A stretch of 64,000 nt of DNA. It comes from Lachnospiraceae bacterium. Lineage in GTDB: Bacteria; Bacillota; Clostridia; Lachnospirales; Lachnospiraceae. Position numbers and translations under genes: made by a program. Position 1 is the first letter of the stretch; every line of letters begins with the position of its first letter. Below, one piece after another: positions 23,697-31,020 of this stretch. The notes below the pieces were generated by a model that did not search any database, was not told where the DNA came from, and saw only the letters and a program-made list of their open reading frames with translations. Location: the NCBI GenBank assembly GCA_017500935.1, contig JAFVXW010000018.1, positions 1-64,000 on the forward strand, read 5' to 3'.

Positions 23697-24680
23697 TTAG
23701 CCCAGGCTCTCCGACGCACATAACTGTCCGTAACCCGTTTTTTCATTTGGTCTTTCCGCTTCTCCTCTCAGCGGTCTAGCACCTGCCCGCAGCAGCGCTT
23801 TCATCTTTTCTCCGTAAAGATAAGGATCATTCCCCCGCACAATGCCCCATTCCATCAAAAGAGCCGCCGTTCCGGATACCAACGGTGCCGCAAAAGAAGT
23901 ACCGCTGACCTGTACTGTACCTCCTCCTGCAGTGGGTACCCGGATATCCACTCCCGGCGCCACCAGATCAGGTTTGGTGTCTGCAAATACATTTTCCGTG
24001 GTCGCATAAGTCGGTGCACCACGCCCGGAAAAATCCGCATAGGCATCATAAAGCGCATTGCTTGCCCCGACCGTGATCACCTTTGCAGAAGTAGATGGAA
24101 CAGTCAGCGTCAACTCCGGCACCGCCCGGGTAAAACGTGTTCCCGGCATCCGTGCCTCCTGTCCCGGCAGATAAAACTGATACATCCCTGCCACGATCCT
24201 GCGGGGTGTCAGACGAAACCGCCAAACCCCTGCACTTATATAATCATCCATCGGTAAAAAATCAAAAAAAATCTCCTGATGGACCGAATAAGGAGACGGC
24301 TGCCCTACATAGATCAGAATCTGTGTCTTTCCCGCTAAAATCTCCTGCCGCTTAAGCTGCGTAAACTGTACCGGAATCTCTTCTCCTGTCGGAGCACGAA
24401 GCTCTATATCGAATCGGTCTGCAAAATTTTTCCAAAGCTGCACATTGATGGTTCTCTCATAATCTGCGATCACCAGCTCAACCTGCTGTGTTACCGATTC
24501 CTCACCTGACGCCTGCTGTTCTTTGGACAGCTGTCCCGCCGCATGCCCCAGTGATGCGCCTTCATTGCCGCTGCCCACGCAGATCACAGTTCGTCCGGTT
24601 TCGGCCGCATTGTCCAGATAACGGGAGAGCAACGATGACCCGTCATGAGATCCGTATAACCAAGGGAAAAAGAAACGCAT
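23697..24680 (-). pseudogene. S8 subtilase, C-terminal part (gene split by mobile element)
   Basis: This frame holds the second half of a subtilisin-like protease: DGSSLLSRYLDNAAETGRTV then GSGNEG with the oxyanion Asn, and the catalytic Ser in VSGTSFAAPLVSG. The first dozen residues (from 24680, including FFFPWLYGSH) are read from the inserted element. True subtilase sequence begins at CAT GAC near 24646. The catalytic Asp and His lie in the other part at 29943-30910. On its own this fragment cannot be active. The full gene resembles the Csp-like subtilases of clostridia. Confidence 0.9.
24643..24647. other. left recombination junction core
   Basis: On the minus strand the sequence reads TCTCATGACGGGTC: element up to CATGA, then subtilase codons for HDGS. 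It matches the right junction only in the shared pentamer TCATG (plus strand). Large serine recombinases need only a 2-bp identical core, so such a short match is expected. Confidence 0.75.
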
Positions 24681-24742
24681 GGAAAAGTTTCTGTATCAGA
24701 AATCCCTTCCGTTGAGAATCCGTGCAGCGAAAACACCAGAAT

Positions 24743-25546
24743 TTATTTGCCGAAAATTCCATTACGCACTTTTTTCGGTGAAATACCATAATGCTTTTTG
24801 AATGCCCGGCTGAAATAAAAGGGCGTTTCATAGCCCATCTCCTCAGCAATTTCGGAAACAGACTTTGTGGTTGTCAAAAGAAGGTCCATAGCGGCATCCA
24901 TTTTGAGTTTGGACATGTATTCCTTGGGAGACATGCCGGTTACACGGTGTACGGCATCGCGAAAGCTTCTCTCACACATACCGGCGGTTTTGGCCAGTGT
25001 CTTAAGATCCAGCTGTTGGTAACAGCCTTTTTCCAAAATAGCAGTGAGCTCTGAAGCGGATAGCTGAGCAGATGTGCCGGAATGAAGGCGTATCATCCAA
25101 TCCGAAAGCAGAAAATTAAACAGCGCCTCTGCATTCAGACATTCATTGATGAACTTACTGTTAAGATTGGAAAAACATCGTTCCATATTTTTCAGTTCAG
25201 ATGCCGTGATATTCAGCTCTTCAACCCAGTTACACTTTTCCCGCCAGTCGCTATGATTAAAACGGAACCAGTAAAACTGCCATCCCTCCAAAGAGGCTTT
25301 GTATTGCGCCACGTCACCGGAGCAAAAGATTCCCAGACTATTCGCTTTTAATTCATGTTTTTCACCGTTATATTCTGTTAAAATTCCGCAGCCGCTGATG
25401 GTGCGAACCGCAATATAATCGGATTCCATAATGCCCGGCCGTTTGACGATATGATAGCTTTGATCGGCATCAATATACCATATCACACACAAATACGCAT
25501 AAGGCAGGTTTGCCAAAAACTGCCGCTTGGAAAATATATTTCTCAT
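24743..25546 (-). CDS. AraC-family transcriptional regulator (element cargo)
   Basis: The 267-residue protein has an N-terminal cupin-like sensor region (1-160, with SLGIFCSGDVAQY) and two C-terminal helix-turn-helix motifs: LDLKTLAKTAGMCERSFRDA and VSEIAEEMGYETPFYFSRAF, ending FKKHYGISPKKVRNG. AraC proteins of this type usually activate glycan or small-molecule genes. It is divergent from the URO-D-like gene over a 208-bp spacer and probably controls it. Confidence 0.92.
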   Translation of the reverse strand: MRNIFSKRQFLANLPYAYLCVIWYIDADQSYHIVKRPGIMESDYIAVRTISGCGILTEYNGEKHELKANSLGIFCSGDVAQYKASLEGWQFYWFRFNHSDWREKCNWVEELNITASELKNMERCFSNLNSKFINECLNAEALFNFLLSDWMIRLHSGTSAQLSASELTAILEKGCYQQLDLKTLAKTAGMCERSFRDAVHRVTGMSPKEYMSKLKMDAAMDLLLTTTKSVSEIAEEMGYETPFYFSRAFKKHYGISPKKVRNGIFGK

Positions 25547-25754
25547 GATAATCGCTTCTGCGCTCCCTTTATTTTAAATAATTGCTGACAGATTCAGAAT
25601 AACATAAAATGGAAGGCTCAACATCCTTTTTTGCCGAAAAGTGTATGTAAATAACCGATTATGGAATGTCTTTTCATCTGTTTTGTTCTAAAATAGAATA
25701 TAAGAACCAATGATTTTTAAGCGACCTGAAAATAAAACAACAGAGGTGACGATC

Positions 25755-26885
25755 ATGAATGAAAGACAGCGTTATGTAAACACTTTGACTTTTCAGGCAG
25801 TGGATAAAATTCCGCTGATGCCGGGCGGTCCCCGGGAATCCACTTTGAAACGCTGGCATGAGGAAGGGCTGCCGGAAGATATGGATTATATGGATTATGT
25901 CTGCAGCAGACTGGGAATTGTCCGCGAAAAGCCTTCTTCCACAGACGAAGGTTTCTTTGTGGATGCACGTATGAAGCCGCTGTATGAGGAGAAAACCTTG
26001 GAGCACAGGGACGGGCATTATATCTGTCAGGATTGTATCGGAATCATTACGGAGATATCTGATCAATACGATGTAAGTTACCTGCGCTCTGCCAAGGATT
26101 TTGTAACCCGCCGTTATATCAGCTTTCCGGTGAAAACCAGAGAAGATTGGGAAGAAATGAAAAAGCGTTACGATCCGTATGCACCGGGCAGGATTCCGGA
26201 AAATCTTTCACAGATCGGTCCGAAACTCGCTGAACGGGATTTCCCGCTGACTATCAATATCAACGGTCCTTTCTGGCAGATGCGTGAGTGGCTGGGACTT
26301 GAGAATCTGTGCATGCTGTTTGTGGATGACCCGGAATGGGTTGCCGAAATGGCAGAATTTTGGGGCGAGTATGTTTTAAAACTGCTGCAGCGCGTATTTG
26401 AGCATGTCCAGCCGGATTGCCTGCGTTTTTCAGAGGATATGGCTTATAAAGCTCACAGCATGATCAGTCCTGCCATGACCCGTGAATTTTTACAGCCGGT
26501 ATACCGAAAATGGTATCAGGAAATCAAAAAACATGACATTCCTCTTCTGCAGGTTGACAGCGACGGATACATTGCCGATCTTCTGCCGATTTGGATCGAG
26601 TCCGGCATCAATGCCTGTGATCCTTTGGAGGTTGCTGCACACAATGATATCGTAGAGTATCGTAGGAGCTATGGAAAGAAGATGGCATATGTAGGCGGTA
26701 TTGATAAACGTGCCATAGCTGCCGGTGGAGAAACGCTCCGAAATGAAGTGCTGCGTGTGGTTCCTCCGCTGTTAAAAGAAGGCGGTTACATACCTTCCTG
26801 CGACCATGGAGTACCGGGAGATATTTCTCTGGAAAACTTCGTTGAATACACCAGAATGCTGGCAGAATTAACCGGCTGGCTTTAA
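25755..26885 (+). CDS. uroporphyrinogen decarboxylase (URO-D) family protein, possible methyltransferase
   Basis: Start 25755 (MNERQRYVNTLTFQAVDKIP) follows GAGGTGA; 376 residues. The TIM-barrel pattern of the URO-D/MtaA/CmuA superfamily is clear (NINGPFWQMREWLG, CLRFSEDMAYK, YVGGIDKRA, PSCDHGVPGDISLENF). Corrinoid methyltransferases of this group usually carry an HxC zinc motif; the matching place here reads LQVDSDG, so the HxC is absent. No corrinoid protein or activator is encoded nearby. It is unlikely to be the haem enzyme; the reaction is unknown. The next gene starts 16 bp on, so they form an operon. Confidence 0.85.
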   Translation: MNERQRYVNTLTFQAVDKIPLMPGGPRESTLKRWHEEGLPEDMDYMDYVCSRLGIVREKPSSTDEGFFVDARMKPLYEEKTLEHRDGHYICQDCIGIITEISDQYDVSYLRSAKDFVTRRYISFPVKTREDWEEMKKRYDPYAPGRIPENLSQIGPKLAERDFPLTININGPFWQMREWLGLENLCMLFVDDPEWVAEMAEFWGEYVLKLLQRVFEHVQPDCLRFSEDMAYKAHSMISPAMTREFLQPVYRKWYQEIKKHDIPLLQVDSDGYIADLLPIWIESGINACDPLEVAAHNDIVEYRRSYGKKMAYVGGIDKRAIAAGGETLRNEVLRVVPPLLKEGGYIPSCDHGVPGDISLENFVEYTRMLAELTGWL

Positions 26886-26901
26886 AGAGGGGAACGAAAA
26901 A

Positions 26902-27966
26902 ATGAAATATTATACATCTGAAAAGCATTTTTTAAAAAAATTTCATTCAGCCTATCGCACCCACAGCTTTCAGGCTGACACCAAAGAAGAATTCCTGATC
27001 TGGCAGGATTCGCTGCGCCATAAGCTATGCGAACTGTTGGGAACCACACAGATGGAGAAATGTCTCCCACAGCCGGAACTGGTGGAAACTGTCGCCTGTG
27101 ACGGATATATACGGAAAAAAATGCTGATCCATACAGAACCGGATGTTATCATGCCGTTTTATGTATTGATCCCGGATGATCTGAAAGAGGGAGAAAAGCG
27201 AACCGCTCTGATCGCATGCCACGGCCACGGCAGTAACGGCAAAGAGGCGGTAGTGGGTCTCCGTCAAAAAGAGGGTGTGGCAAATACGATCGATGTCCAT
27301 AATTACAATTACGGAGAAATGTTTGTTAAGAAAGGATATATTGTATTTGCAGCAGATGCCAGAGGTTTTGGAGAACGTCGGGAAATTGATCTGCAGGGAG
27401 ATGAACAGGAAAAATATCTTTCGTCGTCCTGTCGGGGACTGGCACATCTGGCACTTCCCCTGGGACAAACAGTTGCCGGTATGTGGACCTGGGATCTGAT
27501 GCGTCTTGCAGATTACATCATGACCTGTGATTTTGTTAACGGGCATCTGGCTTGTGTGGGATTATCCGGCGGCGGTCTGCAGACGTTATATTTCTCTGCA
27601 TTAGATCCCAGAGTGGAATGCGCCGTCATCAGCGGCTACTTTTACGGTGCCGGCGAATCCCTGGTTACCATGTTCCAAAATTGTGACTGTAACTTTATCC
27701 CCAATCTTTGGAAAACCGCAGATATTGGAGATATTGGTGCTTTGGTGGCTCCAAGACCGCTGCTGATCGAGACCGGAAATATCGATCCCCTTAATGGCAG
27801 CAGCGGGCTGGACAATGTTTATCCGCAAGTAGAAAAAGTCCGCAAGGCCATGAAACTTTGGAACGCCGAAGAAAATCTGTATCATGATGTTTTTGACGGA
27901 CCGCATATGTGGCACGGAGATTATGCATATGACTGGGTAATCACACACGTGCCGCCGAAACAGTAA
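26902..27966 (+). CDS. alpha/beta hydrolase (dienelactone hydrolase / acetyl esterase-like)
   Basis: The 354-residue cytosolic protein has the alpha/beta hydrolase core: oxyanion region CHGHGSNGKE at 106-115, nucleophile elbow GLSGGG with Ser222, a likely acid Asp295 (NIDPLN) and His335 or His338 in DGPHMWHG. It resembles large AXE1/abhydrolase-7 esterases linked to polysaccharide use. It follows the URO-D-like gene by 16 bp with AGAGGGG upstream. Substrate unknown. Confidence 0.87.
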   Translation: MKYYTSEKHFLKKFHSAYRTHSFQADTKEEFLIWQDSLRHKLCELLGTTQMEKCLPQPELVETVACDGYIRKKMLIHTEPDVIMPFYVLIPDDLKEGEKRTALIACHGHGSNGKEAVVGLRQKEGVANTIDVHNYNYGEMFVKKGYIVFAADARGFGERREIDLQGDEQEKYLSSSCRGLAHLALPLGQTVAGMWTWDLMRLADYIMTCDFVNGHLACVGLSGGGLQTLYFSALDPRVECAVISGYFYGAGESLVTMFQNCDCNFIPNLWKTADIGDIGALVAPRPLLIETGNIDPLNGSSGLDNVYPQVEKVRKAMKLWNAEENLYHDVFDGPHMWHGDYAYDWVITHVPPKQ

Positions 27967-27993
27967 AAAAAAGAATCACTATAGAAAAAATTT

Positions 27994-28039
27994 ATCCTGG
28001 TTCAAATCTAAGCGTAAAAATTTGAACCAGGATTTTTTT
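27994..28039 (+). terminator. strong terminator after the element cargo operon
   Basis: ATCCTGGTTCAAAT and ATTTGAACCAGGAT make a perfect 14-bp stem with a 12-nt loop, followed by TTTTTT. It separates the cargo operon from the recombinase module. Confidence 0.9.
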
Positions 28040-28136
28040 GTACTTTCACGAAAGCCAACTTCAATCTTCACAGACTTTTGGACATTCCTGCCGGCATAGA
28101 ATATCAAAAAGCAATGTCTGTCGAAGGAGGCAATGC

Positions 28137-28301
28137 ATGAGCACAATCCCCGCACAGCCCCCGGTTCATCCTTCAGGAAATGCACCGCAGCCAAACGTGA
28201 ACTATCCGCATAATGGATATCAGATCCGTATTTACTTTAACGGGCCAAAAACCCTGACTCAATGTATCAAAAATTTAGCCGAACGAAAATTACTTACTTG
28301 A
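28137..28301 (+). CDS. small TnpW-like protein preceding the recombinase
   Basis: A 54-residue frame begins MSTIPAQPPVHPSGNAP at 28137, 6 nt after GGAGG. After a Pro-rich start it has a YQIRIYFNGPKTLTQCIKNL core, a pattern like the small TnpW proteins encoded next to TnpX-type recombinases in clostridial transposons. The match is from memory and only approximate. It ends 19 bp before the recombinase start, so the two are probably cotranscribed. An overlapping start at 28133 gives an unrelated short frame and was not chosen. Confidence 0.55.
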   Translation: MSTIPAQPPVHPSGNAPQPNVNYPHNGYQIRIYFNGPKTLTQCIKNLAERKLLT

Positions 28302-28320
28302 ATCATGATCGGAGTGAAAA

Positions 28321-29898
28321 ATGTATCAGATGGCGGCATATTGTCGTTTATCGAAAGATGACGGTGAAAACAAAATCAGTGAAAGCATTGAAAACCAATT
28401 AAAACTTATCCGTGAATATGTCGGCAAATCCAATGATCTCAAAATCGCAGATATTTACATTGATGACGGTTATTCCGGACTATATTTTTCAAACCGCCCT
28501 GATTTCCAGCGAATGATGGAAGATATCTGCAGCGGAAAGATTCAGGGGGTGATCACCAAAGATATTTCCCGACTTGGCAGAGAACATATTGAGACAAGTA
28601 ACTATATTGAACGTATCTTTCCTTCTCTGAATGTCAGATTCATTGCTATCCTGGATAATGTGGATTCTGTTTCACACAGTAATGAAGAATTGGCTCAGTT
28701 CAAAACACTGTTCAATGATATGTACAGCCGGGATATCTCTAAAAAAATCCGCGCTGCTCTTACCGCCCAGAAAAAAAGAGGACAGTTCATGTCCGGATTT
28801 GCTCCGTATGGTTATCAGAAAGATCCCAATAACAAGCATCGTTTCATTATCGATCCGCAGGCAGCTCAGACTGTCCGCAGAATCTTTAGTCTGTACCTCT
28901 CCGGCTATTCCAGAGACGGAATTGCCCAAATCCTGAATACAGAAAAGATTCTGTCTCCTTCCGAATACAAACGCAAAGTACAGAAACTCAATTATACCAA
29001 TGCCTGCGAGAAATCCGGAGCAAAAGGCTGGACATATCCCACCATTAACGTCATCCTGCGAAACCGTACTTACACAGGTGCAATGGTACAGCATAAGTCA
29101 GAAAAGATCTCCTATAAAATTGACAAATATAAATACATTCCTCCGAAAGAACAATACATTGTTGAAAACACGCATGAACCAATTATCAGTCAGGATACAT
29201 TTGAGCAGGTACAGAATCTCATGACCAAACGTACCAGAACTCCCGGTTACCTGCGTGAAGCAAAAAAAGTAAATCCTTATGCCGGTATTCTGGTCTGTGG
29301 AGACTGTGGTTATAATTTGCAGCGTGTTGCCTGCAGAGACGGATATGAATGCAGCTCCTATCACAAAAAGGGAAACACCTTCTGCTGCTCCCACTTTATC
29401 CAAAAATCTATCCTTGATGAAGTCGTGAAAATGGAAATTCAAAGTCAATTCTCCCTGGCCTTAACAGAAAAAGACAAAGAGGACATTTTAAAGGCTGCCG
29501 ATTATCGAAACGAATTTGCCAGAAAAACTCTTTTTGCAGACCAGCAACTGGAACAGCTACAAAAAGATCGTGCTGTCATCCAGAAATACAAAATGAAGAT
29601 CTTTGAAAACTATGTGGACCAAATCCTTTCCAAAGAAGAGTTCCTTTCCTACAAATCAGACTACGAACAGCAGGAAAAAGATATCCTCGACCGTATCTCC
29701 CAGCTTGCATCCAAAAAGGAACAATTCACCAAATCCCAGTCTGAATATGGGCACTGGATTGAAAAGCTCATAAAATACGGTTCTGTTGACGAAGTCACAA
29801 GGGAAATGGTTGTGGAATTGATCGATAAGATTCTGATCAATCAGGATATGAGTATTGATATTGTGTTTAAGTATCAGTCACCATATGCAGATACTTAA
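28321..29898 (+). CDS. large serine recombinase (TnpX/TndX-like)
   Basis: The 525-residue protein has the resolvase catalytic domain: Ser11 in AAYCRLSKDDGE, and KDISRLGREHIE with catalytic Arg. A recombinase domain follows (FAPYGYQKDP), then a zinc ribbon (GDCGYNLQRVACRDG, later CCSHF) and a coiled-coil-like Lys/Gln/Glu-rich region at about 375-470. Such enzymes integrate and excise mobile elements at short att sites without host factors. The gene ends 45 bp before the right junction. Codon use is more A/T-rich than the neighbouring host genes. Confidence 0.95.
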   Translation: MYQMAAYCRLSKDDGENKISESIENQLKLIREYVGKSNDLKIADIYIDDGYSGLYFSNRPDFQRMMEDICSGKIQGVITKDISRLGREHIETSNYIERIFPSLNVRFIAILDNVDSVSHSNEELAQFKTLFNDMYSRDISKKIRAALTAQKKRGQFMSGFAPYGYQKDPNNKHRFIIDPQAAQTVRRIFSLYLSGYSRDGIAQILNTEKILSPSEYKRKVQKLNYTNACEKSGAKGWTYPTINVILRNRTYTGAMVQHKSEKISYKIDKYKYIPPKEQYIVENTHEPIISQDTFEQVQNLMTKRTRTPGYLREAKKVNPYAGILVCGDCGYNLQRVACRDGYECSSYHKKGNTFCCSHFIQKSILDEVVKMEIQSQFSLALTEKDKEDILKAADYRNEFARKTLFADQQLEQLQKDRAVIQKYKMKIFENYVDQILSKEEFLSYKSDYEQQEKDILDRISQLASKKEQFTKSQSEYGHWIEKLIKYGSVDEVTREMVVELIDKILINQDMSIDIVFKYQSPYADT

Positions 29899-29929
29899 AC
29901 AATCTGGATGTGGACGCCTTATTCTTCCC

Positions 29930-30910
29930 CTATTTACAATGCTCATGCGGTCCATAACTGTTCCCGAAACTCAAATTGATCACCAGCGGCATCCCCATCG
30001 CCCGGGCCTTCTGCAGTACCCACTGTACCCCCCGCATCAGTTCCGTGGTACGTGGGAATCCGGTCCGGCGGTTTGCAAGTTTGACGATCAGCAATTTTGT
30101 CCCTGTCGCCACTCCCCGCAAAAGCGGATCGGCATTATTCCCTGCTGCCACAGCCGCCACCTCTGTGCCATGTCCGGAACGGTCACTGCTGGGAAGCTGT
30201 AGAAAGGCGTCCTCCCTGCTGCCGGCTGCCAGTGCGGTATTGATCTGTTCTTCCGAAAACTCCACACCGATGGAAAACCCTTCAGGGGGCGCATACGCAA
30301 ACACGGATGCCCTATCTTCCGACTCCTGCTGTCCGCCCGCACGCATACGCTGCTGCCTTACTGTCTCTGCATCCAGCGTCTGATCCCACAGCGCAGCAAT
30401 CCGCGTGGTTCCATCTGCATTGCGAAAATCCGACAGATAATAATCAATTCCCGAATCCAGCACTGCCAGTAAAATACCTTCCCCGGACAGCGGACTCCCA
30501 CTCCTCCCGGCTGCACTGCCCACCTGGCCGATCACACCACCGTCTATGATAGCGGCGGGCCATCCGGGCACTGCCCCTTCTGTCAGCGGTAAAATGCAGC
30601 TCTCCTGTTTGGCGGTATACAGATTTTCCTGCAGATTTTTGGGCATCTCCACATATTCGATCTGCGGCAGCAAAACCAATTCCCCGATCAGACTTTCCGG
30701 TACCGTCAGTATGGCATATCCTGCCAGCAATTCCTCCACGCCAATTCCTGCTTCCCGGATTTCATCCAGGCTGCCGCTGTATTTGACGATCAGTTCCCAG
30801 GTATTCTCCCGTTCATCATATCCAACGTCAAGCACCCCGGAACGGGCGCGCTGTTCCGGGGTGCTTTCCAAACTTAAATTCAATATGGTTTCCAGTTTTT
30901 GTGACGGCAT
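29930..30910 (-). pseudogene. S8 subtilase, N-terminal part (gene split by mobile element)
   Basis: This part starts MPSQKLETILNLSL at 30910 and encodes a propeptide-like region (1-110), the catalytic Asp in LLAVLDSGIDYY and the catalytic His in DRSGHGTEVAAVAAGNN. It runs to INLSFGNSYGPH, then enters element sequence and stops after EHCK. The Ser half is at 23697-24648. Joined, the protein would be about 637 residues. Clostridial Csp-type subtilases act in spore germination; that role here is only a guess. Confidence 0.9.
29943..29947. other. right recombination junction core
   Basis: On the minus strand the sequence reads GGACCGCATGAGCATTG: subtilase codons for GPH, then element. The shared TCATG (plus strand) matches the left junction exactly. 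Confidence 0.75.
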
Positions 30911-31020
30911 GTTTCCTCCGTAAAACGTTCTGCCTTACCGTATCCTATGCCGCTTGGAACCGATCGGTTCCTCTTTCCCGGTATCTTTGCCGGCATACAG
31001 CCCGCCCTCTGATGCGGCAG

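Follow-up and report, generated by a model that had tools for sequence, protein, structure and literature searches.

The window, by which we mean the whole 64,000-nucleotide stretch of DNA analysed here, lies in contig 86 of a 3.56-Mb draft genome and carries one Csp-type subtilase gene on the minus strand that is interrupted by an element of 5,300 bp. The N-terminal half of this csp gene (29930..30910, minus strand) encodes a CspB prodomain (PF18425, E 5.6e-31) and the catalytic Asp and His (Peptidase_S8 1-119) and runs up to LSFGNSYGPH, after which its last four codons (EHCK, then stop) are derived from the element. The C-terminal half (23697..24644, minus strand) starts with DGSSLL and contains the catalytic Ser in the motif GTSFAAP (Peptidase_S8 162-288). 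Copies of the core TCATG mark the junctions to the C half (left copy, 24643..24647) and to the N half (right copy, 29943..29947), and the element measures 5,300 bp with one core copy included (24648..29947). Both halves, the recombinase gene between them, and the TCATG edges lie where the original prediction had placed them, and its claim of an in-frame rejoining holds as well: Joining at the common core (CATGA in csp orientation) gives a single open frame of 637 aa, GNSYGPHDGSSLL, in which GNSYGPH is joined to DGSSLL. A 5-base direct repeat by itself could be due to chance, a doubt that is removed by the presence of homologous elements at the same codon elsewhere (see below).

That the interrupted gene encodes a Csp-type protease, initially no more than a conditional suggestion, is borne out by the CspB prodomain and the S8 catalytic domain that Pfam detects across the two halves. 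The best NCBIfam match of both halves is CspBA (200 and 110 bits vs. a cut-off of 1250) and the CspC model reaches about 79 bits vs. a cut-off of 675, scores that are not decisive for Csp membership when below cut-off because these models are of the type “exception”. Related genomes do carry the intact gene at this site, e.g., the same-genus genome G009 with a frame of 609 aa (68% identity) in which the homologue of the C half is likewise uninterrupted. Relative to the outgroup G015, the amino acid identity of the split csp is 0.581 (N) and 0.623 (C), vs. 0.563 (N) and 0.554 (C) for the intact csp of G009, i.e., the split gene shows no accelerated divergence compared to its intact congener; synonymous sites are saturated, and this relative comparison was therefore used instead of dN/dS. 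We note that a recent insertion would give the same identities, and that csp halves of recent origin would be undecayed whichever model applies.

The element encodes a large serine recombinase of 525 aa (28321..29898, plus strand), probably its integrase/excisionase, whose Pfam/NCBIfam domains (PF00239 Resolvase, PF07508 Recombinase, PF13408 Zn_ribbon_recom, and DUF4368) place it in this recombinase class. Directly upstream lies a small ORF of 54 aa (28137..28301, plus strand); the window shares an ORF of ca. 55 aa in this position, ahead of the recombinase module, with the genomes G181, G299, and G1027. Judging from sequence, the 54-aa protein is a candidate directionality factor; its assignment to a known family (TnpW or RDF) was rejected for want of any Pfam/NCBIfam match below E 0.05, and one homologue weakly matches PHROG 23540 (function not known; 0.00096). 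The cargo consists of genes for an AraC-family regulator (24743..25546, minus strand; PF12833), a URO-D / MtaA-CmuA-like methyltransferase (25710..26885, plus strand; PF01208, with TIGR01463 below cut-off), and an alpha/beta hydrolase of the Abhydrolase_7 type (26902..27966, plus strand; PF12715). A prophage identity was rejected since the Pfam matches of these three genes are confined to AraC, URO-D, and hydrolase families, with no structural or packaging gene among them. Matches in phage records were limited to recombinases (all below 60% identity and at most 37% among the 20 matches listed of 497), the plasmid collection contained no match to the element, and IMG/VR contained two distant recombinase relatives and no exact attP-arm match for the two patterns searched. 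A stem-loop before the recombinase leader (27983-28038 of the window), probably a terminator, resembles short stretches on contigs 28 and 29 of the same genome.

Taken together, both ends of the element form a near-palindromic attP of 44 bp that matches those of G181 and G299 at 34/44 and 33/44 positions, respectively, compared to 22 and 23 for the best of 2000 shuffles, and the attP arms are conserved among related elements. The matches are almost equal in both orientations (34/32 of 44 for G181 and 33/33 for G299), and this near-palindromic nature makes the inverted recombinase gene of the window compatible with insertion in either direction.

Split csp genes recur across the family. Out of 397 genomes drawn, 261 contain a homologue of the csp C half (E <= 1e-15), and the length of the best-matching frame was covered for 228 of them (148 plus 80 of the remaining 113, with 33 left out). 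Among these 228 genomes, csp is split in 11 at three conserved sites: the codon used in the window (site 1: the window genome G000, G181, G299, G282, and G063), the catalytic-Asp motif DSG (site 2: G287, G100, G232, G319, and G374), and SFG|N, six residues before site 1 (site 3: G160). A later recombinase draw of 392 partly overlapping genomes added G1027 and G955 to site 1, at which the target codons are conserved as YG[PS]H|DG. Short csp frames at contig edges (G087, G157, G254, and G383) or with adjoining parts and no insertion (G310, G073, and G378) were left out of the split count, and so were G309 and G295, in which the prodomain was not found upstream, so that 11 could be an undercount. 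The csp frame of G309 begins directly behind the matching linker, and csp may hence also be interrupted at another point, between its prodomain and its protease domain. In a class-level draw of 391 genomes, no further split frame was found among the 23 with a match at E <= 1e-40. As a single sporulation marker, SpoIVA is present in 12/12 genomes checked, including that of the window.

Wherever both halves could be paired, i.e., in 8/8 cases (window, G181, G299, G282, G063, G160, G287, and G319, with G1027 left out), joining at a shared core creates an open full-length frame. A single contig carries both csp parts in the window, G181, G299, G1027, and G319, whereas those of G282, G063, G160, and G287 come from different contigs and are only putatively linked. 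In G181, the motif-restoring join uses only a shared CA that was read by eye, with four longer cores ranked ahead by the script, and the motif-restoring core of G282 and G287 is similarly below the top rank. The C part alone was seen in G374 and G955. The insertion is thus as precise and reconstructable as had been predicted, and the relatives do not generally carry decayed halves. The exception is G232, where the sole N part detected comprises about 98 codons, does not reach site 2, and ends beside another gene; this lone prodomain on contig 12 (L148) ends with KRLYFE and a stop codon. The csp parts of G319 join in frame as well; here, an insert of about 71 kb separates them at the catalytic-Asp motif (contig 41, 93.4-164.3 kb; L150/L160/L159/L151/L116). 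This insert carries genes for FliF, FliG, a FliI-type ATPase, a rod protein, CheA, and MCP, and seven queries detected no serine recombinase in it. Chemotaxis genes next to a split csp were found in one more genome, G374 (contig 55; L157), whose C part starts at the site-2 motif and comes immediately after CheB, CheA, and MCP genes.

The recombinase of the window belongs to a clade that is tied to csp. Close relatives of 64-74% identity were found in G181, G299, and G063 (draw of 397 genomes) as well as G1027 and G955 (draw of 392 genomes), and together with the one in the window, all of these (6/6) are encoded beside a csp C half. Two of them are fragments, in G063 one of 309 aa that lies 2.0 kb from csp and lacks a CATAGRAT box and in G955 one that lies 3.4 kb from csp. 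Among the relatives of at most 42% identity that were examined, none had csp in the flanking DNA fetched. At site 2, recombinases with 31-38% identity to the one of the window are found in the csp genes of G287 and G232, which shows that csp is targeted outside this clade too, and at site 3 a different large serine integrase (21% identity) lies at the N-side edge in G160 (L145/L106). Several recombinase types therefore use csp, each at its own codons. The number of recombinases per element is two in G181, two in G299, and one in the window.

The leader of the recombinase operon contains a −10-like box, CATAGAAT (28095..28102, plus strand), which is conserved in the leaders of G299, G181, and G1027; all four have a CATAGRAT box there, with CATAGAAT or CATAGGAT in the conserved stretch before the small ORF. 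A similar box, CATAGGAT(A), is found upstream of the csp start codon (30942..30949, minus strand). By its sequence, the box of the recombinase operon appears to be of a mother-cell sigma type, and no convincing −35 element for sigmaE or sigmaK was found upstream of it. The motif CATANNNTA, which we take to be a sigmaK box, is present in 17/41 csp leaders vs. 1.97 expected from Markov-sampled shuffles, a comparison to which no probability is attached since the leaders are related. These 41 leaders exclude duplicates, matches not near the N terminus, and cases with no start codon or no 100 bp upstream. In C. difficile, the −10 boxes of sigmaE and sigmaK are very similar and the csp operon is sigmaE-dependent (PMC3789822). 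Among 50 recombinase loci compared, three of which (L018-L020) have the box set apart by the first recombinase or by a truncation, five have CATAGRAT within 400 bp upstream, none of them in csp, at −217 to −223 compared to −226 in the window. Four of these five adjoin a LysM-like frame (read by eye; Pfam detects LysM in both tested). The recombinases of L050, L051, L054, and L057, from genomes titled Tenericutes, Firmicutes, or Bacilli, have a similar box and a small upstream ORF and lie immediately before LysM-like VSGD[ST]L frames, possibly representing a second family of intervening elements in another gene.

Mobility is evident from an element common to two congeneric species, G299 and G1027, which spans 19.7 kb in G299 and about 1.5 kb more in G1027. 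From junction to junction, the two copies are nearly 100% identical, indels aside: every 200-column window of the alignment except a single one reaches 97% identity or more (median of 100%), compared to 64-83% for windows in the csp N half and about 92-95% in the C half, and the flanks are unalignable. With high identity confined to the DNA between the junctions, the insertion of this element into two differing csp genes was recent and exact at both ends. The cargo varies from element to element and includes, e.g., a Cys/Met PLP enzyme, a PALP enzyme, and an Rrf2 regulator in G181. G299 additionally carries a second csp N half (contig 10, L147) that is followed by the same attP arm as in L102 and then by different DNA, and among the matches listed for this genome there is one csp C half of a near-identical type; with two N halves and one such C half, half-swapping between csp copies is conceivable.

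We are highly confident that csp is interrupted by a precise, mobile, and recurrent intervening element, and we consider developmental excision with restoration of csp in the mother cell to be the best explanation of it, though with no more than moderate confidence. As proposed, a small non-prophage mobile element has a recombinase for which the YG[PS]H|DG codons conserved in csp genes would serve as attB, and no full-length Csp could be made from the split gene as long as the element is integrated. During sporulation, the recombinase and the putative directionality factor of ca. 54 aa would be expressed from a predicted mother-cell promoter of the sigmaE/sigmaK type. The recombinase would then join attL with attR so that the element circularises and csp, which would also be transcribed in the mother cell, is restored in frame. 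The forespore would retain the element, which could thereby be inherited at no cost to germination.

The strongest competitor, which we regard as possible yet clearly less probable than developmental excision, is an ordinary integrative element for which csp merely happens to be the attB, with the inactivation of one csp tolerated owing to the paralogue or to an ongoing reduction of sporulation in the host and with no developmental control of excision. The recent horizontal spread of the G299/G1027 element and the different cargo of each element would fit this scenario, as would the early end of the N part in G232 and the csp genes without detectable prodomain in G309 and G295. The window genome has one CspB-prodomain match and a second, distant Csp-like gene that is intact (contig 52, 605 aa), and loss of the split csp may be tolerated because of this paralogue. 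However, an ordinary element does not readily account for why a single sporulation/germination gene was chosen repeatedly by at least three distinct recombinase types, why all eight testable pairs have remained open, why SpoIVA is retained in every genome checked, and why the recombinase operon bears a csp-type −10 box.

It is unlikely that the element instead mediates stochastic, heritable phase variation in which excision and re-integration at a low rate in growing cells create spore subpopulations with and without Csp. Such a switch would agree with the situation in G100, the only genome with coexisting empty and occupied alleles, where the occupied form of site 2 (contig 28) overlaps with its empty form (at the end of contig 13) by 156 bp with two mismatches. 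However, the two forms may be alleles that coexist or may stem from a mixture of two strains, and they concern a different site from that of the window, whose own assembly contains no excised form of the element. Furthermore, the leader motif suggests developmental timing, and large serine recombinases often depend on a directionality factor to excise their elements (PMC5025042). An assembly or binning artefact that placed unrelated DNA into csp might be suspected given the 87-contig draft source and its estimated contamination of 5.67%, but the same site, att arms, and recombinase are found elsewhere, including on the single contig of G1027, which makes this the least credible reading and very unlikely indeed.

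If excision of the element is indeed developmental, then programmed DNA splicing of the protease that initiates cortex hydrolysis would gate germination in some gut spore-formers. Seemingly broken csp genes in genomes might then be functional, which would affect the genome-based prediction of spore-transmitted commensals, and the system would offer a clean test of why serine-recombinase elements favour spore genes as homes. Beyond this, we tentatively raise the rather doubtful idea that the csp genes of this family could be a recombination hub whose conserved codons were independently chosen by at least three distinct serine-recombinase systems, as a gene expressed in the doomed mother cell alone would be a cost-free home. 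Germination would then depend on DNA splicing, unspliced spores might be slow or dormant as a form of bet-hedging controlled by the element, and in some species even a 71-kb flagellar/chemotaxis cluster could be spliced out.

Among the matches listed in open-licence literature, none described an element that interrupts csp. The domain layout of the recombinase, including DUF4368, is that of serine-recombinase transposons of the TnpX/TndX type, but unlike for these transposons, its close relatives were found tied to one csp codon pair. Regarding the analogies drawn by the original prediction for a presumed on/off switch, the comparison to the element in sigK fits, whereas the one to comK fits less well, as the element in comK of Listeria is a prophage and the one described here has no phage-type Pfam cargo and a sporulation/germination target. 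Exact removal restores the frame of the interrupted gene, which in this respect places the csp element with the sporulation gene-intervening elements of the skin, gin, yin, and SPbeta/spsM class. The skin element of C. difficile (recombinase CD1231, RDF CD1234) is likewise a serine-recombinase element in a mother-cell sporulation gene, sigK, and has a small RDF gene inside the element, under sigmaE/SpoIIID control, and restores the gene upon excision (PMC5025042); the element of the window has a candidate RDF as well. However, the target of skin is a sigma factor gene, whereas the csp element of 5.3 kb has no recognised phage genes and resides in a germination protease gene, and CD1231 is described there as constitutive (PMC5025042) while the recombinase and the small ORF of the window adjoin behind one leader. 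In Bacillus cereus ATCC10987, gerE is interrupted by gin, also a non-prophage element with (three) serine recombinases whose excision restores a sporulation gene, but it differs in its size of 28.6 kb, its target, its host lineage, and the experimental demonstration of excision (PMC5595907). The yin element is likewise a serine-recombinase intervening element; it lies in the sporulation protease gene yabG of Clostridium botulinum V73 and occurs in integrated and excised forms in culture (PMC10747680). It is prophage-like and called “unique” by its authors (PMC10747680), whereas the pattern described here concerns csp and recurs across genera.
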